DNA from: Halopelagius longus
Lineage (GTDB): Archaea > Halobacteriota > Halobacteria > Halobacteriales > Haloferacaceae
Direction of reading: 5' to 3'
NCBI RefSeq assembly: GCF_900100875.1
Contig: NZ_FNKQ01000001.1
Location: 496,001 to 560,000, forward strand
DNA length: 64,000 nucleotides
A model generated the notes under the pieces. The model was not told where the DNA came from and ran no database searches. It saw only the letters and a program-made list of their open reading frames with translations. The translations under genes were made by a program, and so were the position numbers. Below, piece by piece: positions 28,832 through 37,656 of the stretch (position 1 is the stretch's first letter; each line of letters begins with the position of its first letter).

Positions 28832-29107
28832 ATGAACTCCCCAAACGAAAACTCTAATTACCGTCCCTCTGTCGCAGTCGTCGAACACGTCGCCGAACAC
28901 CTCGACTCCGACCCGTTAGCGTTGAAACCGTTGTCCAACGCCATCGACCCGGACGTGTTGGACACGTTCGCGGAAACCGGGTCCGTCGCGCCCGACTCCG
29001 AACTCCGATTCTCCTATCTCGGGTGCGACGTCGTCGTCTTCGGCGACGGGCGAGTTCAACTCTCGCAGGCGGACGACGCCGGTGACTCTTCCGACCGAGA
29101 TGAGTGA
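28832..29107 (+). CDS. HalOD1 output-domain protein (second copy)
   Basis: A 91-residue protein that is essentially one HalOD1 domain: SVAVVEHVAEHLDSDPLALK, then PLSNAIDPDVLDTFAE, then FSYLGCDVVVFGDGRVQL. Both tails are polar. A TGA lies directly before the ATG in frame, so the start cannot be further upstream. It precedes the subtilisin-like gene by 164 bases on the same strand. It is a divergent relative of the protein at 10761. The partner sensor is unknown. Confidence 0.82.
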   Translation: MNSPNENSNYRPSVAVVEHVAEHLDSDPLALKPLSNAIDPDVLDTFAETGSVAPDSELRFSYLGCDVVVFGDGRVQLSQADDAGDSSDRDE

Positions 29108-29271
29108 CTTCCGGGCGAAGTAACTTCGATTGACGCCGGGGCGCTAAGTTAGTTTGGGCGAACCGAGGGCTGAACCTGTCGGGCGAGTGCGATATCGTTT
29201 TCACCGCGGACGCGAATCTCCGGAGCGATGCCCCTCCACCGAGACGGTTCCGCCGCCGCGTTCGGACAGCC

Positions 29272-30642
29272 ATGACCGCCGACGCCCGTCGAACGCTCCT
29301 CGTGGTCACCGTCTGCGTCGCCCTCGTCGCCGCCGGCGTCGGGTCCATCGCCGCGTGGCAACCCCACCCCTCGCCGCGGCCCGCGGACGACGCGTCCGCC
29401 TCCGCGTCGCCCGGCGACGACCCCATCACCCGACTGCACGCCGCCGGCGTCACCGGCGAGAACGTCACCGTCGGCATCGTGGACCCGACCGGGTTCGACC
29501 TCGACCGGACGAACCGGTCGGCGAACGTGGTGGCGACGCGCACGTTCGGCACGGAGTCGTCCGTCCGAAACGGCGGCCGGAACGACCACGGCACCGCCGC
29601 GGCGACGACAGTGGCCCGCGTCGCGCCCGACGCGAACCTCGCGTTGGCGACGTTCGACTCCCCTGCGGGGTTCCGCGAGGCCGTCGCGTGGGCGGTCGAA
29701 TCCGACGTGGACGTCGTCGTCGCGCCCGTCTCGTTCCTCGGGGCGGCGGGCGACGGGAGCGGTGCGGTGTCCCGCGCGGCGACGAACGCCACCCGCGAGG
29801 GCGTCGTGTTCGTCGCGCCGACGGGCAACATCGCGCGCGGCCACTGGCGGGGCCGGTACGACGCGGTGGAGAACGGGACGCTCCGGTTCGGGGAGACGAA
29901 CCGGGCGTACCTCTCGGGGGACCGCCGCCGCGTGACGGTGTGGATATCGTGGGACGAGGCCCGTAGCCGCGAGGACTACACCGCGGAACTGTACCGGACG
30001 AGCGGCGGTCGAACCCGACTCGTCGCGCGGTCGCAACCGTACGGGGGCGACGGCGTGCCGAACGAACGCCTCGTCGCCCTCGCGCAACCGGGGACGTACC
30101 ACGTCGTCGTCCGCGGCCCCGAGAACGCGACGGGGACGCGCCTCGAACTGGAATCGCCGACGCACGACTTCCGGCGGGCGACGCCGAAGCGGAGTCTCAC
30201 CGCCCCGGCGACGGCCCCGGGCGTCCTCGCGGTGGGCGCGTACGACCCCCGGACCGGCCGGCCGGAACCGTTCAGTTCCCGCGGGCCGACGGCGGACGGC
30301 CGCCTCGGCGTCGACGTCGTCGCGCCGGACCGCGGCGTCGCGCCGACGACGGGCGAGGCGTTCGTCGGGTCGTCGGCGGCGGCGCCGTACGTCGGCGGCG
30401 CGGCCGCCCTCATCCTCTCGGTGGCCCCGGAGCGGTCCCCCCGCGAGGTGGAGGTGGCACTCGAACGAACGGCCGCCGACGCCGGGCGACCGGGAGCCGA
30501 CTTCGCGACGGGTCACGGGCGCATCGACCCCGTCGCGGCGGTCCGCGCCGCATCCGAGGCGGCGAACCGAACCGCCCGCGAGGCGAACGCGACGGCCGAA
30601 CCGACGACCGACCGCTCAAAGAGGGATTTGACCTACGGGTAG
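29272..30642 (+). CDS. Membrane-anchored or secreted subtilisin-like (S8) serine protease
   Basis: A 456-residue protein. Residues 8-30 form an N-terminal hydrophobic segment (signal peptide or anchor) followed by a Ser/Ala/Asp-rich linker. The catalytic triad is visible: Asp71 in VGIVDPTG, His106 in NDHGTAAA and Ser368 in VGSSAAAPYVGGAAAL, with the oxyanion Asn186 in PTGN. A region of about 110 residues (200-310) inserted before the Ser motif looks like a beta-rich P-domain-like insert. Asn-Ala-Thr and Asn-Arg-Thr sites near the C-terminus could be glycosylated. It faces the cell exterior. No propeptide is obvious. Confidence 0.82.
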   Translation: MTADARRTLLVVTVCVALVAAGVGSIAAWQPHPSPRPADDASASASPGDDPITRLHAAGVTGENVTVGIVDPTGFDLDRTNRSANVVATRTFGTESSVRNGGRNDHGTAAATTVARVAPDANLALATFDSPAGFREAVAWAVESDVDVVVAPVSFLGAAGDGSGAVSRAATNATREGVVFVAPTGNIARGHWRGRYDAVENGTLRFGETNRAYLSGDRRRVTVWISWDEARSREDYTAELYRTSGGRTRLVARSQPYGGDGVPNERLVALAQPGTYHVVVRGPENATGTRLELESPTHDFRRATPKRSLTAPATAPGVLAVGAYDPRTGRPEPFSSRGPTADGRLGVDVVAPDRGVAPTTGEAFVGSSAAAPYVGGAAALILSVAPERSPREVEVALERTAADAGRPGADFATGHGRIDPVAAVRAASEAANRTAREANATAEPTTDRSKRDLTYG

Positions 30643-30703
30643 CGCTTAGTACCCGGCCGAACGACGACGAACGAACGCGACCCTTCGCGCACCCGAACTC
30701 ACG

Positions 30704-31309
30704 ATGTCCGGACTCATCGACCGCATACAGGACCGAACCGCCCGCACCGACGAACGACCCCGCGTCCTCGACGTGGGCGACGAGGAGGCCGACGCCGTCA
30801 TCCGAGCGCTCTCCTCCGACACCCGTCGGGAGGTGTTCCGAACGCTGTTCGACGACCCCGGGACGGCCTCCGAGATAGCCGACCGCCTCGACACGTCGGT
30901 GCAGAACGTCCACTACCACCTCTCCAGTCTGACCGACGCGGGACTGGTCGAGGGCGTCGACACCCGCTATTCGGAGAAGGGCAACGAGATGGTCGTCTAC
31001 GGCCCGGCGAACGACCCCATCGTCTTCGTCGGCAACCGCGACATCGGCCCGAGCGTCCGCCGTTCTCTCGTCGACGTGGTGGCCGGACTCGGCGTTCTCG
31101 GCCTCGCGTCTGCGTTCGTCCAGTGGGGCGCGGAACGACTCGCCGGGCGGACGACGACGGGCGTCGGCGTGGTCGAACCGGCGAGTCGTGCGCCGACCGC
31201 CGACCCCTCGCTGCCGTCCCTCCTGTTTTCTACGGTCGAACCGGGACTGCTCTTCTTCGCGGGCTGTCTTCTCGTCCTCGCTCTCGTCGCCGCCCTCCGG
31301 CGGCGGTGA
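30704..31309 (+). CDS. Winged-helix (ArsR-type) regulator with C-terminal membrane helices
   Basis: A 201-residue protein. Residues 20-95 are an ArsR-type winged helix (IRALSSDTRREVFRTLFDDP, then SEIADRLDTSVQNVHYHLSS and a wing). Two hydrophobic segments follow: about 110-130 (LVDVVAGLGVLGLASAFVQW) and 178-198 (LLFFAGCLLVLALVAAL), joined by a loop rich in Thr, Pro and Ser. It is thus a membrane-tethered DNA-binding protein. Its location 61 bases after the S8 protease and beside a surface protein suggests envelope control, which is inferred only. Confidence 0.85.
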   Translation: MSGLIDRIQDRTARTDERPRVLDVGDEEADAVIRALSSDTRREVFRTLFDDPGTASEIADRLDTSVQNVHYHLSSLTDAGLVEGVDTRYSEKGNEMVVYGPANDPIVFVGNRDIGPSVRRSLVDVVAGLGVLGLASAFVQWGAERLAGRTTTGVGVVEPASRAPTADPSLPSLLFSTVEPGLLFFAGCLLVLALVAALRRR

Positions 31310-31372
31310 CCGGAAAAAGAGTCAATTGGGGGACCGAGCGTTTCGGCGACCGAGTGTTCCGGAGACCGAGCG

Positions 31373-32380
31373 TTACGTCCGGAACAGGCCGAGGAGGAGG
31401 CCGACGCCGACGACGCCGAGTGCGCACCCCGCGGCGAGAGCGCCGATACCGAACGCGTCGTCGCCGAACAAGCCGGTCTCGGAACTATCGACCGACGCGG
31501 GCGTCGCAGTCGCAGTTTCCGTCGTCGCGGTGGCCCTCGGTGTCTCGCTCCCGTCCGAGACGGTCGGCGCTTGGTGGACGACCATCGACCCCACGTCCGC
31601 GGGGTCGCCGGAGCCGTTCTCGCCCGGATAGACGGCCACGGGGTAGTCGCCGGGGTCTACCAGCGATTCGAGCGACGACTCCTCGATGGGGTCGAGTGCG
31701 GTCCGTCGCCCGTCGTCGAGGACGCTCGCTGTCGTCCGCGGGGTGCCGGCGTTCTCCGTGTGGAAGAGGACCACCGCTCGGCCGTCGCCGTCCCGGTCGC
31801 GGACGGTCGCGGCGTACCGGTAGTTCACCTCCTCGCCGCCGACGACCACCGTCACCGCCTCGTTGTCGCCGAACGTCACCGGGATGCGCGCGGTCCGCGA
31901 CCGGGTCACCTCGGTGACCGACGCGACGCCGACGCTGTCCGTCGAGAGCGTCGCTTCCCCGCCGAAGGCGTCGCGTTCCGTCGCCGTGGCGTCCGCGCAG
32001 TCGCCGTCGCAGGGGGCGAGTTCTCCCTCGGCCTCGGCGAGTCGTTCCCCGTCGTGGACGACGGTCACGGCGACCGACCCGTTCTCGGAGACGTCGCTCA
32101 GGTCGAAGCGCGCCTCGAACGTGCCGTGCTCCGTGACCGTGGCCTCGACCGTCTTCAGGAACGCCGGTTCGGTGTCGCCGGTCGACCGCATCCGGACGTT
32201 CAGCACCGACCCCGGGGGGAGCGTCGTCTCGCCCGAGACGACCTGTCCGGGCCCGGCTTCCAAGGTGAGAGCGTCCCCCTCGTAGACGAGAGTGACGCTG
32301 TCGTCCGCGGCGGCGGCCGCCGCCGGACTCGCGACCGTCAGGAGGACGCAGGCGAGGACTGCGACGCGGAGGCGCGTCAT
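31373..32380 (-). CDS. BGTF-type surface protein with signal peptide and C-terminal anchor
   Basis: A 335-residue exported protein. The N-terminal signal spans about 5-26 (VAVLACVLLTVASPAAAAAA). The body is beta-rich and acidic, with LVYEGDALTLEAGPGQVVSG near the start and GDNEAVTVVVGGEEVNYRYA in the middle, a pattern of the BGTF domain of haloarchaeal surface proteins. A Thr/Ala-rich stretch (about 285-305) precedes a C-terminal hydrophobic helix ending LLLGLFRT. Several Cys residues (CDGDC) may form a disulfide. It converges with the winged-helix gene. Role: cell-surface component of unknown ligand. Confidence 0.75.
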   Translation of the reverse strand: MTRLRVAVLACVLLTVASPAAAAAADDSVTLVYEGDALTLEAGPGQVVSGETTLPPGSVLNVRMRSTGDTEPAFLKTVEATVTEHGTFEARFDLSDVSENGSVAVTVVHDGERLAEAEGELAPCDGDCADATATERDAFGGEATLSTDSVGVASVTEVTRSRTARIPVTFGDNEAVTVVVGGEEVNYRYAATVRDRDGDGRAVVLFHTENAGTPRTTASVLDDGRRTALDPIEESSLESLVDPGDYPVAVYPGENGSGDPADVGSMVVHQAPTVSDGSETPRATATTETATATPASVDSSETGLFGDDAFGIGALAAGCALGVVGVGLLLGLFRT

Positions 32381-32575
32381 CGCTCACCTCCGTCGGTTCG
32401 ATTCCGTTCCGCTCGATTTCGTTCGGAGGGCATCACGTCTAGCCGCGTGAACGTCCGGGAAGATAGTACGTCCGATAGCTCAAACGGCGCGTTGAGGTAC
32501 GTCGTCGGGGACTCCCGAGGGACGCCGGCGAGAGTCCCGTTACTCCGAGAGTACCGCTCCGGTTCCTTCCTCGTC

Positions 32576-35500
32576 TCAGTCGTCGGACGCCGACGCCACC
32601 GTCGGGAGCGTGAAGGAGAACGTCGCCCCCTCGCCGGGTTCCGACTCGACCCATATCCGTCCGCCGTGGCGTTCGACGATGCGTTCGCACAGCGCCAACC
32701 CGATTCCCGTTCCGGAGTGCTCGTCGGGGGCGTGGAGGCTCTGAAACACCTCGAAGACCCGGTCGGCGTCGGCCGGGTCGATGCCGATGCCCTCGTCGCG
32801 CACCGAGACGACCCACTCCTCGCCGTCCCTCTCGGCGGAGACGTGGGCCCGCGGCGGGTCGTCGCCGCTGTAATCGATGGCGTTGGCCAGCAGATTCTGT
32901 AACACCTGTTTGAGCTGACTTCTGTCGCCGTAGACCCGCGGGAGACGCTCGGCGGTGATGTCGGCGTCGCTCTCGGATATCTTCATCTGGAGGTCCCGAC
33001 GGACGTTCTCGAAGACGGCGTCGAGTTCGACCGCCTCGAAGGGGTTACCTCGGGTATCGACCCGGGAGTACTGGAGCAACCCCTCTATCATCTCGCGCAT
33101 GCGGTCTGCGCCGTCGACGGCGAACTCGAGGAACTCCTCGCCGTCCTCGTCGAGGGCGTCCTCGTACCGCCGTTCGAGCAGTCGGAGGTAGCTCGACACC
33201 ATTCGCAGGGGTTCCTGCAGGTCGTGGGAGGCGGCGTAGGCGAACTGCTCTAAGCGCTCGTTGGACTCCTCCAGTTTTCGCTCGTACTCCCGGCGCTTGG
33301 TGACGTTCCGGACGACGAGCATCCCCGCGTACACCTCGTCGTCGGCGTTCCGGACGGGGAGCGTCCGGTTGAACAGGTTCCAACCGGCGTACTCGGTCTC
33401 GAAGGTGCTGGCCTCGCCGTCGAGTGCGGCTCGGAAGTACGGTTCGACCTGCTCGACGAGGTCGTCGGGGTAGAGTTCGCGGATGCTGGCCCCGATTCGG
33501 TCCTCGGGGTCGATGTCGTCCTCCTTCAGGAGTTGGCCGCCCGCGGCCGTGTAGCGGAGGTCTTCGTCGAACAGCGCGACCGCCCCGTCGGGGAAGTCCT
33601 CCACGAGCGTCCGGTAGCGACGCTCGGACTCCTCGAGTTTCCGCTCTCGTTCGACGCGTTCGGTCACGTCTTCGGCGATGCCGACGATGCGCTCCTCGCC
33701 CTCGTTGCGGACCACCCCCGCCCGGGCGTCGAGCCACCGGATTTCGCCGTCTGGCCGGACGATACGGAACTCCTCGTCGATTCCCTCCTCCGGTATCTCG
33801 TCGTACGCGGTTTCGACTCGCCGTCGGTCCTCGGGGTGGACCGCCTCGAGGAACGTCGCGGGGTCGTCGTATATCGGCTCTCTGTCGCGGCCGTATATCT
33901 CCTCGTAGGCGGGGTTGAGATAGAGGACGTCCCGCGTGCCGGGGTCGGATATCCAGACCATCTCCTCGAGGTTCTCGGTCAGCATCCGGAACTTCGCCTC
34001 GCTCTCTTCGAGGGCCCGTTCGCGCTCCTTTTGTCGGGTGATGTCTCGGCCGACGCCCACCACCACCGGGTCCCCGTCGGGGTCGTCCAGTTTCGATGCG
34101 ACGAACTCGTAGGGGACGCGCTCGCCGTCCTTGGTGAGAATCTCCGCCTCCTCCTGGGTGCTGCCGGTTTCGAGCACTTCGGCGATGGCGTTCGCAATCG
34201 TCTCCTGTTGGTCCTCGGCGAAGACGTCCAGCGCGTGCATCGACGCTATCTCCGCGTCGGAGTAGCCGGTCACCTCGCAGACGCTCCGATTCCACCGCTG
34301 GAGGTTCCCGTCGGCGTCGAGGACGTAGAACACGTCGTCGATGGCGTCCAGGATGCGGTTGGTGTACTCCCGGTACTGTTCGAGTCTCCGCTCGTACCTC
34401 CGGCGTTCGGTGTCGTCTTGGACGACGAGCATCCCCGCGTCTACCTCGCCGTCGGCGTTCCTGACCGGGAGCGTGCGGGCGTGCAGGTACCGGCCGCGGT
34501 ACTCGACGTCGAAGGTGCTGGCCTCGCCGTCGAGGGCGGCCCGGAAGTACGGCTCGATGTCTTCGAGGAGGTCCTCGGGGTGGAGTTCGGTGATGCTGCG
34601 TCCGATCCGGTCCTCCGGGTCCACATCGAGCGTATCGAGCAACTGTCCGCCGACTGCGGTGTACTCCAAGTTCTCGTCGAACAGCCCCACCGAGCCGTTC
34701 GGGAAGTTCTCCACGAGCGTCCGATGGCGGCGCTCCGACGCTTCGAGTTTGCGCTGGACCTCCTCGCGTTCGGTGATGTCTTGGGACATCCCCAGCGCCG
34801 CGAACACGTCGCCGGCGTTGTCCCGGACCGGCACGACGCGGAACTGGTAGATCCGCTCGCCGAGTTCGATTTCGAACGTGTCTTCGGTTCCGTCGAGTGC
34901 GGCCTCGTAGCGCGGAACCAACTCGTCGGCCAGATTCGGCGGCAGTATCTCCCCCACCGGCCGGTCTCTCACCTCCTCGGCCGTGACGCCCGCCACGTCC
35001 AACGGCGTGCCGCCGACGGTCCGATAGCGGAGGTCGTCGTCGACGAGTGCGACGGCGCCGTTGGGGAACTGTTCGACGAGCGTCCGGTATCGCCGTTCGG
35101 ACTCTTCGAGGGCCCGCTTGCGCGCCTCGTCCCGACGCCCGGCCTCTCGAAGCGCGCGTTCGCGTTCCGTCCGGGCGATGGCCGACCCGAGAACGTCGGC
35201 GACGCTCCGGACGAACTCGACCTCGTGGGCGTCGAACTCCCGTCGCTCGGCCGCGTACGCTCCGAGTACGCCCCACGGCCCCTCGCTCGAACCGACGCCG
35301 ACGCAGATACCGCTGACGGCGTCGTGACCCCTCAACAGCCCGGGCGCGGAGAACCGCGTCTCGGCCCGGTGATCCTCGACGACGACCGGTTCGTCGGTGC
35401 GGAGGGCGACCCCCGCCTGCGAGTCCGGGTCGGCGGACACGGTCGCAGTCCCGACAACGCCGTCTCGCCAGCCGACGCCCTGACGCAGGACGCCCTCCTC

Positions 35501-35689
35501 CTCGTCCGAAAGTAGCTCGATTACCCCGCAGTATTCGGTACCCAGCGTCTCGGCAACCGCCGTCGTCGCTTCCCGCATCAATCGGTCGATATCGCCGGCG
35601 TCGAGTGCTCGCTGGCCGAGCTCCGCGACAACCTCCTGCTGTCGGAGTCGCGTCCGCAACGAGGACTCCGACTCGGAAGTCGTATCCAT
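32576..35689 (-). CDS. Multi-PAS/GAF sensor histidine kinase
   Basis: A 1037-residue soluble kinase with no membrane segment. A GAF domain (about 20-170) is followed by five PAS domains (about 195-300, 315-430, 435-555, 560-685, 690-800), several near-identical in wording (LVENFPNGSVGLFDENLEYT and relatives), showing internal duplication. The HisKA domain has phosphoacceptor His822 in AASHDLQEPL; the ATPase has NLLANAIDY, VRDEGIGIDP and GTGIGLALCERI. No receiver domain or response regulator is adjacent. The start 35689 has a TATA-like box at the leaderless distance. Its kinase core closely matches that of the protein at 60957. Confidence 0.93.
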   Translation of the reverse strand: MDTTSESESSLRTRLRQQEVVAELGQRALDAGDIDRLMREATTAVAETLGTEYCGVIELLSDEEEGVLRQGVGWRDGVVGTATVSADPDSQAGVALRTDEPVVVEDHRAETRFSAPGLLRGHDAVSGICVGVGSSEGPWGVLGAYAAERREFDAHEVEFVRSVADVLGSAIARTERERALREAGRRDEARKRALEESERRYRTLVEQFPNGAVALVDDDLRYRTVGGTPLDVAGVTAEEVRDRPVGEILPPNLADELVPRYEAALDGTEDTFEIELGERIYQFRVVPVRDNAGDVFAALGMSQDITEREEVQRKLEASERRHRTLVENFPNGSVGLFDENLEYTAVGGQLLDTLDVDPEDRIGRSITELHPEDLLEDIEPYFRAALDGEASTFDVEYRGRYLHARTLPVRNADGEVDAGMLVVQDDTERRRYERRLEQYREYTNRILDAIDDVFYVLDADGNLQRWNRSVCEVTGYSDAEIASMHALDVFAEDQQETIANAIAEVLETGSTQEEAEILTKDGERVPYEFVASKLDDPDGDPVVVGVGRDITRQKERERALEESEAKFRMLTENLEEMVWISDPGTRDVLYLNPAYEEIYGRDREPIYDDPATFLEAVHPEDRRRVETAYDEIPEEGIDEEFRIVRPDGEIRWLDARAGVVRNEGEERIVGIAEDVTERVERERKLEESERRYRTLVEDFPDGAVALFDEDLRYTAAGGQLLKEDDIDPEDRIGASIRELYPDDLVEQVEPYFRAALDGEASTFETEYAGWNLFNRTLPVRNADDEVYAGMLVVRNVTKRREYERKLEESNERLEQFAYAASHDLQEPLRMVSSYLRLLERRYEDALDEDGEEFLEFAVDGADRMREMIEGLLQYSRVDTRGNPFEAVELDAVFENVRRDLQMKISESDADITAERLPRVYGDRSQLKQVLQNLLANAIDYSGDDPPRAHVSAERDGEEWVVSVRDEGIGIDPADADRVFEVFQSLHAPDEHSGTGIGLALCERIVERHGGRIWVESEPGEGATFSFTLPTVASASDD

Positions 35690-35712
35690 CTACCGAGGTG
35701 AGACGAGCGGGA

Positions 35713-35720
35713 CTGATAAG
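35713..35720 (-). promoter_or_regulatory. TATA-like box of multi-PAS kinase
   Basis: CTTATCAG on the minus strand, 24-31 bases before ATG 35689. Confidence 0.45.
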
Positions 35721-36096
35721 AGTCTTCGTTCGCCGGTCCTCGCGTGAGAGGGAGTTTACATCTCGGTCGGAGAGGGCGGGGCGGGTTCGTACCGGTGGAC
35801 TGGGTGATCGGGATGCTCGCCCTGTAGTACGTCGCGAGAATGTAGTGGATTGGCCAGGAACGAAATATTTCACTCGTCACACCTCCGAATTCGTCGAAGT
35901 CGAGACGGTGAACATGCTGGCGGCGTCGTTCCTCTAATTCCTCTATCCAATCTGGCTGGTCATAGTAGGAGTTCAGAACCCGCAACGATCGCAACTAGCG
36001 TCTAATCCCAAGAGCACGGCTACCAGAGAGGTCTGTGTATCCTGTGGGACGATAACCCAGAATCATGTGTAAGTTGAACACTACCTTTTGATAGGA
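35721..36096. other. AT-richer intergenic region left of the tRNA-side patch
   Basis: From about 35840 rightward the DNA is clearly richer in A and T than the flanking genes. On the minus strand a frame beginning just after a TAG at about 35994 reads LNSYYDQPDWIEELEERRRQ and continues for roughly 45 plausible residues before turning into Arg/Ser-rich antisense sequence; it may be a gene remnant. No RNA gene is visible. Confidence 0.4.
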
Positions 36097-36104
36097 TTTT
36101 TAAG
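36097..36104 (+). promoter_or_regulatory. TATA box of 58-residue membrane gene
   Basis: TTTTTAAG lies 23-30 bases before ATG 36127. A GAGGTGAT ribosome site (36117-36124) also precedes the start, so both signals support this small gene. Confidence 0.55.
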
Positions 36105-36126
36105 AGGCGTTGTGTCGAGGTGATAC

Positions 36127-36303
36127 ATGGATACAGCCTCGATACTATACGCCGTCCTGATCGCTTTCACCGTAATCGTCTGTCTCCCGTACGCATTTAT
36201 TATAGCCGGAGAGTTCCTCACGGGGGTAGTTGCCGTCTTCTTAGCGGTTCTTGTGTTCGAAATACACCAACTCCGACGTGTAGTGGCGGCCACAGAGGCG
36301 TAA
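36127..36303 (+). CDS. 58-residue two-helix membrane protein
   Basis: The frame reads MDTASILYAVLIAFTVIVCL, then a short turn, a second hydrophobic helix (about 31-45), and a charged end HQLRRVVAATEA, stopping at TAA 36301. Two helices separated by a Gly-Glu turn suggest a membrane hairpin with a basic cytoplasmic tail. A TATA box and a GAGGTGAT ribosome site both precede it at correct distances. Codon use is AT-richer than in the flanking genes. It lies 153 bases upstream of the AN1/CAP gene on the same strand. The family is not recognised. Confidence 0.65.
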   Translation: MDTASILYAVLIAFTVIVCLPYAFIIAGEFLTGVVAVFLAVLVFEIHQLRRVVAATEA

Positions 36304-36424
36304 CTGTGTCCTCATGGGGGGACCTTCTCATGTATCATCTAGAATCACGTGGGGTGGGGGTATTCTCGAAGTTCGCCGCTCTTAGAGGCGCCTGCTAACC
36401 GCGAAAGTTCTTCATTTCTAACTA

Positions 36425-36434
36425 GTATTATTAC
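36425..36434 (+). promoter_or_regulatory. TATA box of AN1/CAP gene
   Basis: GTATTATTAC lies 23-32 bases before ATG 36457, giving a leaderless message independent of the 58-residue gene. Confidence 0.5.
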
Positions 36435-36456
36435 GGTTACTCTATTTTGATCTGAT

Positions 36457-37317
36457 ATGGCACAGTGTGAGTTATGCGATAACAGTCAAGGTTTGTCTCA
36501 TACCTGTAATTACTGCGGCGGAACGTTCTGTAATACGCACAGACTCCCCGAGAACCACAAATGTGCGGGGCTAAAGAGAGGTACTCGGAAGAGCGAACCG
36601 TGGTTTAAGTCGGAGACAGGTACGAAAAGCCACCAGACGCGAGGAAAGACGGTTTCTCGCACCTATTCTAAGATGTTTAGCAGAAGCAGTATCTTGGCAG
36701 TAGTACTCCTTGCTTCTGTTATTGCTATGAGTATTCATCTCGGTATTTTAGGATACTCTAATGGTCGCCCGACGTTCGACAAAGAACGATTAGACAGCAT
36801 TCCAGCCGGAAACAACTCGTCAACTGCCGACGTCCTTCCGAACGTCAGTCTCGAAATCGATACGACACATAACGAGTCGGTACTTGAGCGTGAGATACAT
36901 AAGGAGATAAACGAGCGACGACAGAGCCATGGCCTCTCTCCGTTGAAATCAGATTCTCAGTTGAGTAACGTCGCGAGAAGCCATTCTCAGGACATGGCGA
37001 CACGAGATTACTTTAGCCACGATTCGCCTGAAGGACGTGATTTTGACGATCGGTATCAGCAGCATGGGTACGAATGTCGAGTTCAGATTTCAGACAGGGA
37101 ATATGCAACCGGGGGTGAGAACATCGCGTACCGGGCATCATCTGGATTGGAGACAAACGAATCAGAGTTAGCTGACGAAATTGTGAACGGTTGGATGAAT
37201 TCAACGGGACACCGTGAAAACATTCTTCGGCCGTACTGGCGTGTGGAGGGTATCGGAGTTACTGTGACGTCCCGGGATGATATGACTGCAGTCTACGTCA
37301 CACAGAATTTCTGTTAG
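36457..37317 (+). CDS. AN1 zinc finger, membrane helix and CAP domain protein
   Basis: A 286-residue protein. Residues 1-40 are an AN1-type zinc finger with ligands Cys4, Cys7, Cys17, Cys20, Cys25, His28, His34 and Cys36. After a basic linker comes one transmembrane helix (about 77-99). The rest (about 137-286) is a CAP/SCP domain outside the cell with the usual signatures: HSQDMATRDYFSHDSPEG, GGENIAYR and NSTGHRENIL. The finger would be cytoplasmic and the CAP domain external. Several N-glycosylation sites are present. The gene is AT-richer than its neighbours, suggesting recent transfer. Function is unknown. Confidence 0.88.
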   Translation: MAQCELCDNSQGLSHTCNYCGGTFCNTHRLPENHKCAGLKRGTRKSEPWFKSETGTKSHQTRGKTVSRTYSKMFSRSSILAVVLLASVIAMSIHLGILGYSNGRPTFDKERLDSIPAGNNSSTADVLPNVSLEIDTTHNESVLEREIHKEINERRQSHGLSPLKSDSQLSNVARSHSQDMATRDYFSHDSPEGRDFDDRYQQHGYECRVQISDREYATGGENIAYRASSGLETNESELADEIVNGWMNSTGHRENILRPYWRVEGIGVTVTSRDDMTAVYVTQNFC

Positions 37318-37581
37318 TACGGATTGATACTCACGGAGTACTTTCCACCGTTACCCCCGAACAGTCTCTTATACAACTACCGTTGAGGCAGTGGTCGTCG
37401 GAGCGAAGTGGTATCTCTTCGCACCTCGGCGTAGCCGTACTATCTACTTGCTCTCGAATCGCAGTCCGGCGGCGTCATCGGACACGAACGCGTCCCGAAC
37501 GCCCGAATTGAACGCCGGGTTTCAGCGAGAATCCGCAGACGGCGTGACGATTCGCTACGTGAGTTATAAGCGTCGAAGAAG
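37318..37581. other. Spacer between AN1/CAP gene and tRNA-Val
   Basis: No reading frame with protein-like composition is visible. The tRNA 3' end faces this spacer, the usual insertion side for mobile elements, but I found no second copy of the tRNA 3' end here or in the AT-richer patch. Confidence 0.4.
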
Positions 37582-37656
37582 TGGGTTGGGGCAGATTTGA
37601 ACTGCCGGCCTCCTCCATGTCAAGGAGGTGTCATAACCAGACTAGACCACCAACCC
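37582..37656 (-). tRNA. tRNA-Val (anticodon GAC)
   Basis: The reverse strand folds as a standard cloverleaf. The acceptor stem GGGTTGG pairs with CCAACCC, the anticodon stem CCTCC/GGAGG encloses loop TTGACAT with anticodon GAC, and the T-arm is GGCAG-TTCAAAT-CTGCC. The discriminator base is A. CCA is not encoded and no intron is present. A TTATATCC box lies about 60 bases upstream (37714-37721). Confidence 0.95.

Follow-up and report, generated by a model that had tools for sequence, protein, structure and literature searches.

Why would a haloarchaeon join an AN1 zinc finger to a CAP domain through a membrane helix, and what might the two halves do? The question is raised by one gene in a 64,000-nucleotide stretch of Halopelagius longus DNA, referred to here as the window. 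The gene occupies 36457..37317 on the forward strand (stop codon included) and encodes 286 residues. A sequence-only reading had described exactly this frame as a cytoplasmic AN1 finger tied through one helix to an external CAP domain, with all eight AN1 ligands and the CAP signatures present, and had named structure prediction and a search for the architecture across archaea as checks. Frame and architecture both hold up: Pfam places zf-AN1 (PF01428) on residues 4-40 (38.1 bits against a cut-off of 27.9) and CAP (PF00188) on residues 150-285 (70.8 bits against 21.1), with one hydrophobic segment in between. The AN1-helix-CAP architecture is almost certainly real, and its order is beyond chance, since it is repeated in 18 other haloarchaeal and three Pfam-confirmed methanogen proteins.

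Sequence and predicted structure

Between stops, the frame opens with the residues SDM, with just two codons separating the in-frame stop from the ATG; the AN1 finger is therefore the true N-terminus of the protein, and no signal peptide precedes it. The finger (residues 4-40; 36466..36576, forward strand, as are all parts of the gene) contains all eight ligands (C4, C7, C17, C20, C25, H28, H34 and C36). Seven are invariant in alignment A1, which holds 16 of the 19 haloarchaeal AN1-CAP proteins, and the eighth, H28, is retained by at least 90% of these 16 (L105 has a cysteine there). Among sequences with known structures, phmmer relates the finger to a plant AN1 protein (1wfp, E 7.4e-6), Cuz1 (5ij4, 2.8e-4) and ZFAND1 (7yab, 0.0037). 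F24, directly before C25, places an aromatic residue by the zinc ligands as in Cuz1 (the Cuz1 position was matched by reading), and in the aligned AN1-CAP relatives this position holds F, Y, H or V. The LDFLP patch of the subfamily comprising Cuz1, AIRAP, AIRAPL and ZFAND1, which would follow the first cysteine pair, is absent from the window finger, which reads DNSQGLSHT instead; many methanogen AN1 relatives have LPF at this position.

We modelled the protein with AlphaFold2, using an alignment of 32 sequences from the window and related loci. The AN1 stretch (residues 1-30) has a pLDDT of 74-81 in the full-length model, and residues 1-50 folded alone without an alignment gave a poor model (pLDDT 51.5). 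The structure-comparison lists are filled by CAP-domain matches and hold no AN1 row, from which we claim no absence of an AN1 fold; the assignment of the N-terminus to AN1 rests on its sequence.

The CAP fold was modelled confidently, with a block-mean pLDDT of 87-98 over residues 141-286, and together with the Pfam score this bears out the CAP signatures. Taking Pfam, alignment and fold together, the domain spans residues 138-286 (36868..37314). The fold matches 4ifa, an extracellular SCP protein from Bacillus (128 residues superposed at rmsd 1.9, Z 21.1), as well as BB0689 (4d53, Z 18.8) and GAPR-1 (Z 15.0-15.6). Residues H188, E221 and H252 are invariant in alignment A1, as are the cysteines C207 and C286. 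The protein scored under the cut-offs of two named families, YkwD (TIGR02909; 93.7 bits against 171) and the divisome-associated lipoprotein DalA (NF052539; 43.2 bits against 200). Viral contigs gave 48 matches to the CAP region, none of which extends to the AN1 part, and the viral structure search returned SCP-type matches. Papers on archaeal sheaths and S-layers in which, as far as the available text goes, "cap domain" has another meaning (PMC11576556, PMC11641113) were set aside.

Membrane topology

The hydrophobic segment covers about residues 77-97 (36685..36747), with a mean hydropathy of 2.52 over residues 79-97, and is a helix over residues 77-94 in the model. Before it lies a K/R-rich linker (residues 41-76; 36577..36684), cytosolic by sequence statistics and of low confidence in the model, and after it a predicted external linker with N-glycosylation sequons (residues 98-137; 36748..36867).

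We compared the flanks of the helix in 22 fused proteins. In 20 of the 22, the 25-residue stretch ahead of the helix has more K/R than the part after it (107 against 20 in total); the charge rule is reversed in L095 and in L281, which has several hydrophobic stretches. N-X-S/T sequons are denser after the helix (49 in 4316 residues) than before it (16 in 2873; Fisher p 0.011, among related rows). Six follow the helix of the window protein, whose stretch from AN1 to the helix has none. Exactly two cysteines follow the helix in 20 of the 22 proteins, and three in the remaining two. These statistics make it very probable that AN1 lies inside and CAP outside; an external CAP domain with one disulfide would fit the cysteine pattern, without this being proof. 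The earlier suggestion of a cytoplasmic finger tied to an external CAP domain thus finds support in charge bias, sequon density and the conserved cysteine pair.

Distribution in Halobacteria

To see how far the architecture extends, archaeal genomes were searched, and the fusion recurs in both haloarchaea and Methanomicrobiales. AN1 is present in all 292 Halobacteria genomes searched, 56 of which have at least two matches. Every AN1 place was searched again in 57 genomes (the 55 multi-AN1 genomes other than the window's, plus G230 and G292), and frames long enough for a second domain were read in those 55 genomes and in G350, reached through a CAP match; the extra frames left unread are shorter than 125 residues, except for a second copy in G303 that equals L091 in length and score. 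Sorted with profiles built from the analysed sequences, the 104 different AN1 proteins comprise 39 rhomboid-like proteins (four or more hydrophobic stretches, which is not a Pfam assignment), 19 with CAP and 46 others. There are thus at least 19 haloarchaeal AN1-CAP proteins in at least 18 genomes, the window's included, with two different ones in G303; G299 belongs to the same order as the window genome. A first scan of genome contigs with query P0001 found no relative. Apparent AN1-CAP pseudogenes in G292 and G270:C12 were rejected: on reading they proved to be helix-CAP genes, with matches that had extended across stops lying upstream.

Several features of this collection are recorded here as separate observations. 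Many AN1 proteins other than the CAP fusions end in a membrane helix, and helix-free ones often (as in L119, L120, L121, L128, L137, L138, L143, L144 and L168) have short, basic, aromatic or amphipathic tails, such as WWRRLLPW and FTRFYRYIRFW, that are perhaps membrane-surface anchors. A linker motif after AN1, [SG]PDVxxDGS[IVL], occurs, with near variants counted, in 9 of 19 AN1-CAP proteins (among them L065, L077, L081, L086, L091, L100, L105 and L160), in 16 of the 46 other AN1 proteins (among them L109, L111, L112, L118-L120, L123, L133, L135, L143, L144, L168 and L169) and in none of the 39 rhomboid-like ones; shuffled sequences gave a mean of 0.0 of 65. The motif is also found in the zinc-ribbon-like L359 and ahead of an RR motif in L363, and is absent from the window protein. 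The linker of the AN1-CAP protein at L105 6726-7934 contains another zinc-finger-like stretch (DUF7575, 21.2 bits, under the cut-off of 28.5). In L129 the AN1 finger is C-terminal, behind a winged-helix-like start that is presumably of the HxlR type.

Fused and paired genes in methanogens

In Methanomicrobiales, the order of Methanoregula sp. UBA471, AN1 occurs in 65 of 232 genomes, and 46 of these 65 also have CAP (79 CAP and 96 AN1 matches in total). Most of the AN1 and CAP genes in the 65 genomes are neither fused nor adjacent. Three genomes (G588, G563 and G545) have AN1 and CAP in one frame, confirmed by Pfam, and a fourth (G543) has a 336-residue frame identified by coordinates alone.

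The two domains also occur as neighbouring genes. A scan with alignment A1 led to UBA471 (G405). Here the AN1 protein has 107 residues and a C-terminal helix; 23 bases past the stop of its gene, on the same strand, lies a gene for a CAP protein of 262 residues. In all, six further genomes (G405, G574, G587, G252, G342 and G285) have an AN1 gene immediately 5' to a CAP gene. The CAP genes of the pairs in G405, G574 and G587 encode their own N-terminal helix; that of G587 is cut by a contig end and that of G574 partly masked. In G252 and G342, which belong to one genus, an 87-residue AN1 gene has two CAP genes behind it, all on one strand, and in G285 a 110-residue AN1 protein lies ahead of a CAP frame. 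By chance, 0.021 AN1-CAP neighbour pairs would be expected in the 65 methanogen genomes, against three seen; this expectation takes each genome to have 2,500 genes and to be independent of the others, and kinship inflates the contrast. The L199 match at 1-286 was rejected as a fusion, being two adjacent genes, and G578 (L257) was not counted as a pair, its frames being broken.

In two methanogen loci (L277 365-1447 and L282) the arrangement differs: a hydrophobic stretch comes after AN1, and a transglutaminase-like part is joined to it, for which the Pfam match in L277 is weak (DUF553, 16.2 bits, under the cut-off of 20.5).

Evolution of the fusion

We built a tree of 96 CAP domains (22 fused, 6 from split pairs and 68 without AN1) by a quick search that left 41 of its 93 inner branches open. 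Parsimony puts 12 changes of the fused label on this tree, at least three of them forced by well-supported branches; the AN1-CAP fusion has been gained or lost repeatedly. The sister of the window protein is L063 of G230 (support 97), with 74% identity over 143 CAP columns. Like other haloarchaeal helix-CAP proteins, L063 shares the helix and following CAP domain with the window protein, but starts at the helix and lacks AN1. AN1 was thus either gained in the window lineage or lost in that of L063, and since this closest CAP relative has no finger, CAP can do without AN1.

Genomic surroundings

The DNA around the AN1-CAP gene, next to a tRNA-Val (gac) gene (37581..37656, reverse strand), is strain-specific and low in GC. 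GC content is 47-51% near the gene against roughly 65-73% on both sides, and is low from about 35.7 kb on. The sister genome G001 has no similarity over 29075-37579, and similarity resumes at 37579, by the 3' end of the tRNA (37581). Within the window, a search for a repeat of the tRNA end with up to three mismatches found the tRNA-Val itself as the only copy.

Nearby genes encode a PAS/GAF histidine kinase, a DUF7827 protein, an HTH protein and a subtilase. The histidine kinase gene, encoding 1037 residues, has internal repeats at 33265-35118 and several PAS matches. Upstream of AN1-CAP, the ORF list has a hydrophobic frame of 58 residues (36127..36303, forward strand), which the sequence-only reading had raised as a possible recurring partner; gene calls at 23 other loci include nothing related to it. 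When the genes of the window and these 23 loci were clustered, the commonest other neighbour families occurred in 4, 3 and 3 of the 24. One of these families (MIIFGRKVRDKDYGEAYPIHCPNCDN...), which we take to be zinc-ribbon-like, adjoins AN1-CAP in L098 and L099 (one genome family) and lies two genes off in L090, a weak association.

A defence role, also suggested earlier, finds nothing in its favour in the protein itself. At an E-value of 0.01, neither the AN1-CAP protein nor the 58-residue frame matched a PADLOC model, although such an absence is not an exclusion. PADLOC does match the HTH protein (Csa3-type regulators, E 1.3e-11) and the subtilase (E 1.7e-11), some 5-7 kb off, and we read these matches as general HTH and subtilase similarity.

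Possible roles

We favour a protein that crosses the membrane once and has its N-terminus inside. Its finger would present a zinc-held docking surface to some partner in the cytosol; outside, CAP would be a stable, probably disulfide-locked, binding domain. That AN1 and CAP recur either within one protein or in adjacent genes makes a joint function of the halves probable. The likeliest partner would be the AAA machinery of archaea (either PAN or Cdc48, together with the 20S proteasome), and the outcome either protein turnover brought to the membrane or a CAP domain placed under the control of this machinery. In archaea, the place of the Rpt ring is taken by PAN. In the available text of the eukaryotic studies, the AN1 finger of ZFAND5 touches Rpt5, an ATPase subunit of the proteasome, and p97 is the partner with which AIRAPL works at the ER membrane (PMC11799193, PMC5943263); Cuz1 needs its finger to bind the proteasome, though the finger does not suffice, and can dispense with the LDFLP patch (PMC5035049). 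Against our reading stand the binding of Cdc48 by Cuz1 through its C-terminal Ubl rather than AN1 (PMC5035049), the missing LDFLP patch of the window finger, the two reversals of the charge rule, the sister protein without AN1 and the many methanogen AN1 and CAP genes that are neither fused nor adjacent. By analogy, there is perhaps an even chance that the finger is a docking finger; PAN or Cdc48 as its partner seems unlikely, and the proposal as a whole, with the halves acting together and AAA machinery as the likeliest partner, is a tentative one that we rate somewhat below an even chance.

Could the finger instead have no partner at all? It might be a small, stable cytosolic knob that fixes the N-in topology or the hold on the membrane, with CAP working alone. 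The ease with which the fusion comes and goes (12 parsimony changes, and a sister without AN1) would suit such a knob, as would the plain N-terminal helix or signal of other haloarchaeal CAP proteins. A mere knob, however, would hardly explain seven invariant ligands and a nearly invariant eighth in 16 diverse proteins, the repeated pairing with CAP even as separate genes, or the CAP-free AN1 proteins with a helix or a basic or amphipathic tail, which look as if the finger were the payload; we consider it possible but rather unlikely. A transmembrane receptor, in which CAP would bind an outside ligand (a lipid, an S-layer part or another cell) and AN1 relay inward, draws on the topology favoured by the sequence statistics, on ligand binding by CAP folds elsewhere (Pry1 with cholesterol, from the title of entry 5ete) and on the joining of AN1 to other membrane parts, rhomboid-like and, weakly, transglutaminase-like. 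Yet no signalling gene recurs beside AN1-CAP in the 24 loci, and the single helix is flanked by linkers of largely low confidence, leaving a receptor decidedly unlikely.

The hydrophobic stretch could also be a cleaved Sec or Tat signal, with CAP released and the AN1 part staying behind; the sequence-only reading had named a cleaved signal peptide as a refutation of its view. One relative looks the part: L006/L102 (genome G034) has a Tat-like RRRLLG after AN1 (RRRLLGLAG) and a weak hydrophobic stretch (1.45), the only one of the 19 haloarchaeal AN1-CAP proteins below the hydropathy threshold of 1.6. The other 21 fused proteins have hydropathies of 2.1-3.5, however, and in the window protein 76 residues including the finger precede the helix, with no start codon upstream of the finger, so that cleavage is very unlikely. 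As for the gene being defence cargo of a mobile island, its low GC, the missing sister-genome similarity up to the tRNA-Val 3' end, the PADLOC matches of the HTH protein and subtilase, and genes near some relatives (L090) that are presumably recombinase- and integrase-like might all be cited for it. Against these stand the lack of PADLOC matches to AN1-CAP and the 58-residue frame, the viral-contig matches that never touch the AN1 part, and the missing tRNA-end repeat, and we regard this role as extremely improbable.

Relation to known systems and outlook

The second AN1 protein of the window genome (L001) has a rhomboid-like build and is presumably an AN1-rhomboid of the RhoII type. According to the available part of the RhoII study, this haloarchaeal protein (HVO_0727) resembles the window protein in having an N-terminal AN1 finger ahead of a membrane part, but is a rhomboid protease with six membrane segments (PMC4343526), where the window protein has one helix and CAP; the Pfam list for the latter has no rhomboid domain, and it has one hydrophobic stretch. 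As RhoII is described there as affecting S-layer glycosylation (PMC4343526), AN1 membrane proteins are already placed in haloarchaeal cell-surface biology.

The YkwD/SCP-type CAP proteins (4ifa, BB0689 and GAPR-1) share the CAP fold; the window protein differs from them in carrying a predicted cytosolic zinc finger. To our knowledge, neither AIRAPL/ZFAND2B nor Cuz1/ZFAND1 has a CAP domain. These share the AN1 finger, and the p97/proteasome quality-control role is theirs, as far as the available text of the sources goes (PMC5035049, PMC11799193, PMC5943263); by the same partial text AIRAPL is associated with the membrane through a CAAX motif (PMC11799193) rather than a spanning helix. Our literature search, with most subscription journals outside its coverage, found no paper on AN1-CAP proteins, and as the architecture can be read from Pfam, databases may list it already.

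Perhaps the fusions belong to something broader. An archaeal family of membrane-tethered AN1 adaptors, comprising AN1-rhomboid, AN1-CAP, AN1 with a C-terminal helix and AN1 with a basic tail, might recruit PAN or a Cdc48-proteasome to the inner membrane face, with CAP as an outside sensor or client binder. This is quite improbable as it stands; if true, such a family would be an archaeal counterpart of AIRAPL-type quality control. In eukaryotes AN1 is tied to protein quality control, and we found little on AN1 in the archaeal literature beyond the AN1-rhomboid. The occurrence of AN1 and CAP in two archaeal groups, both fused and paired, offers a handle on what AN1 binds in archaea and what role CAP plays.
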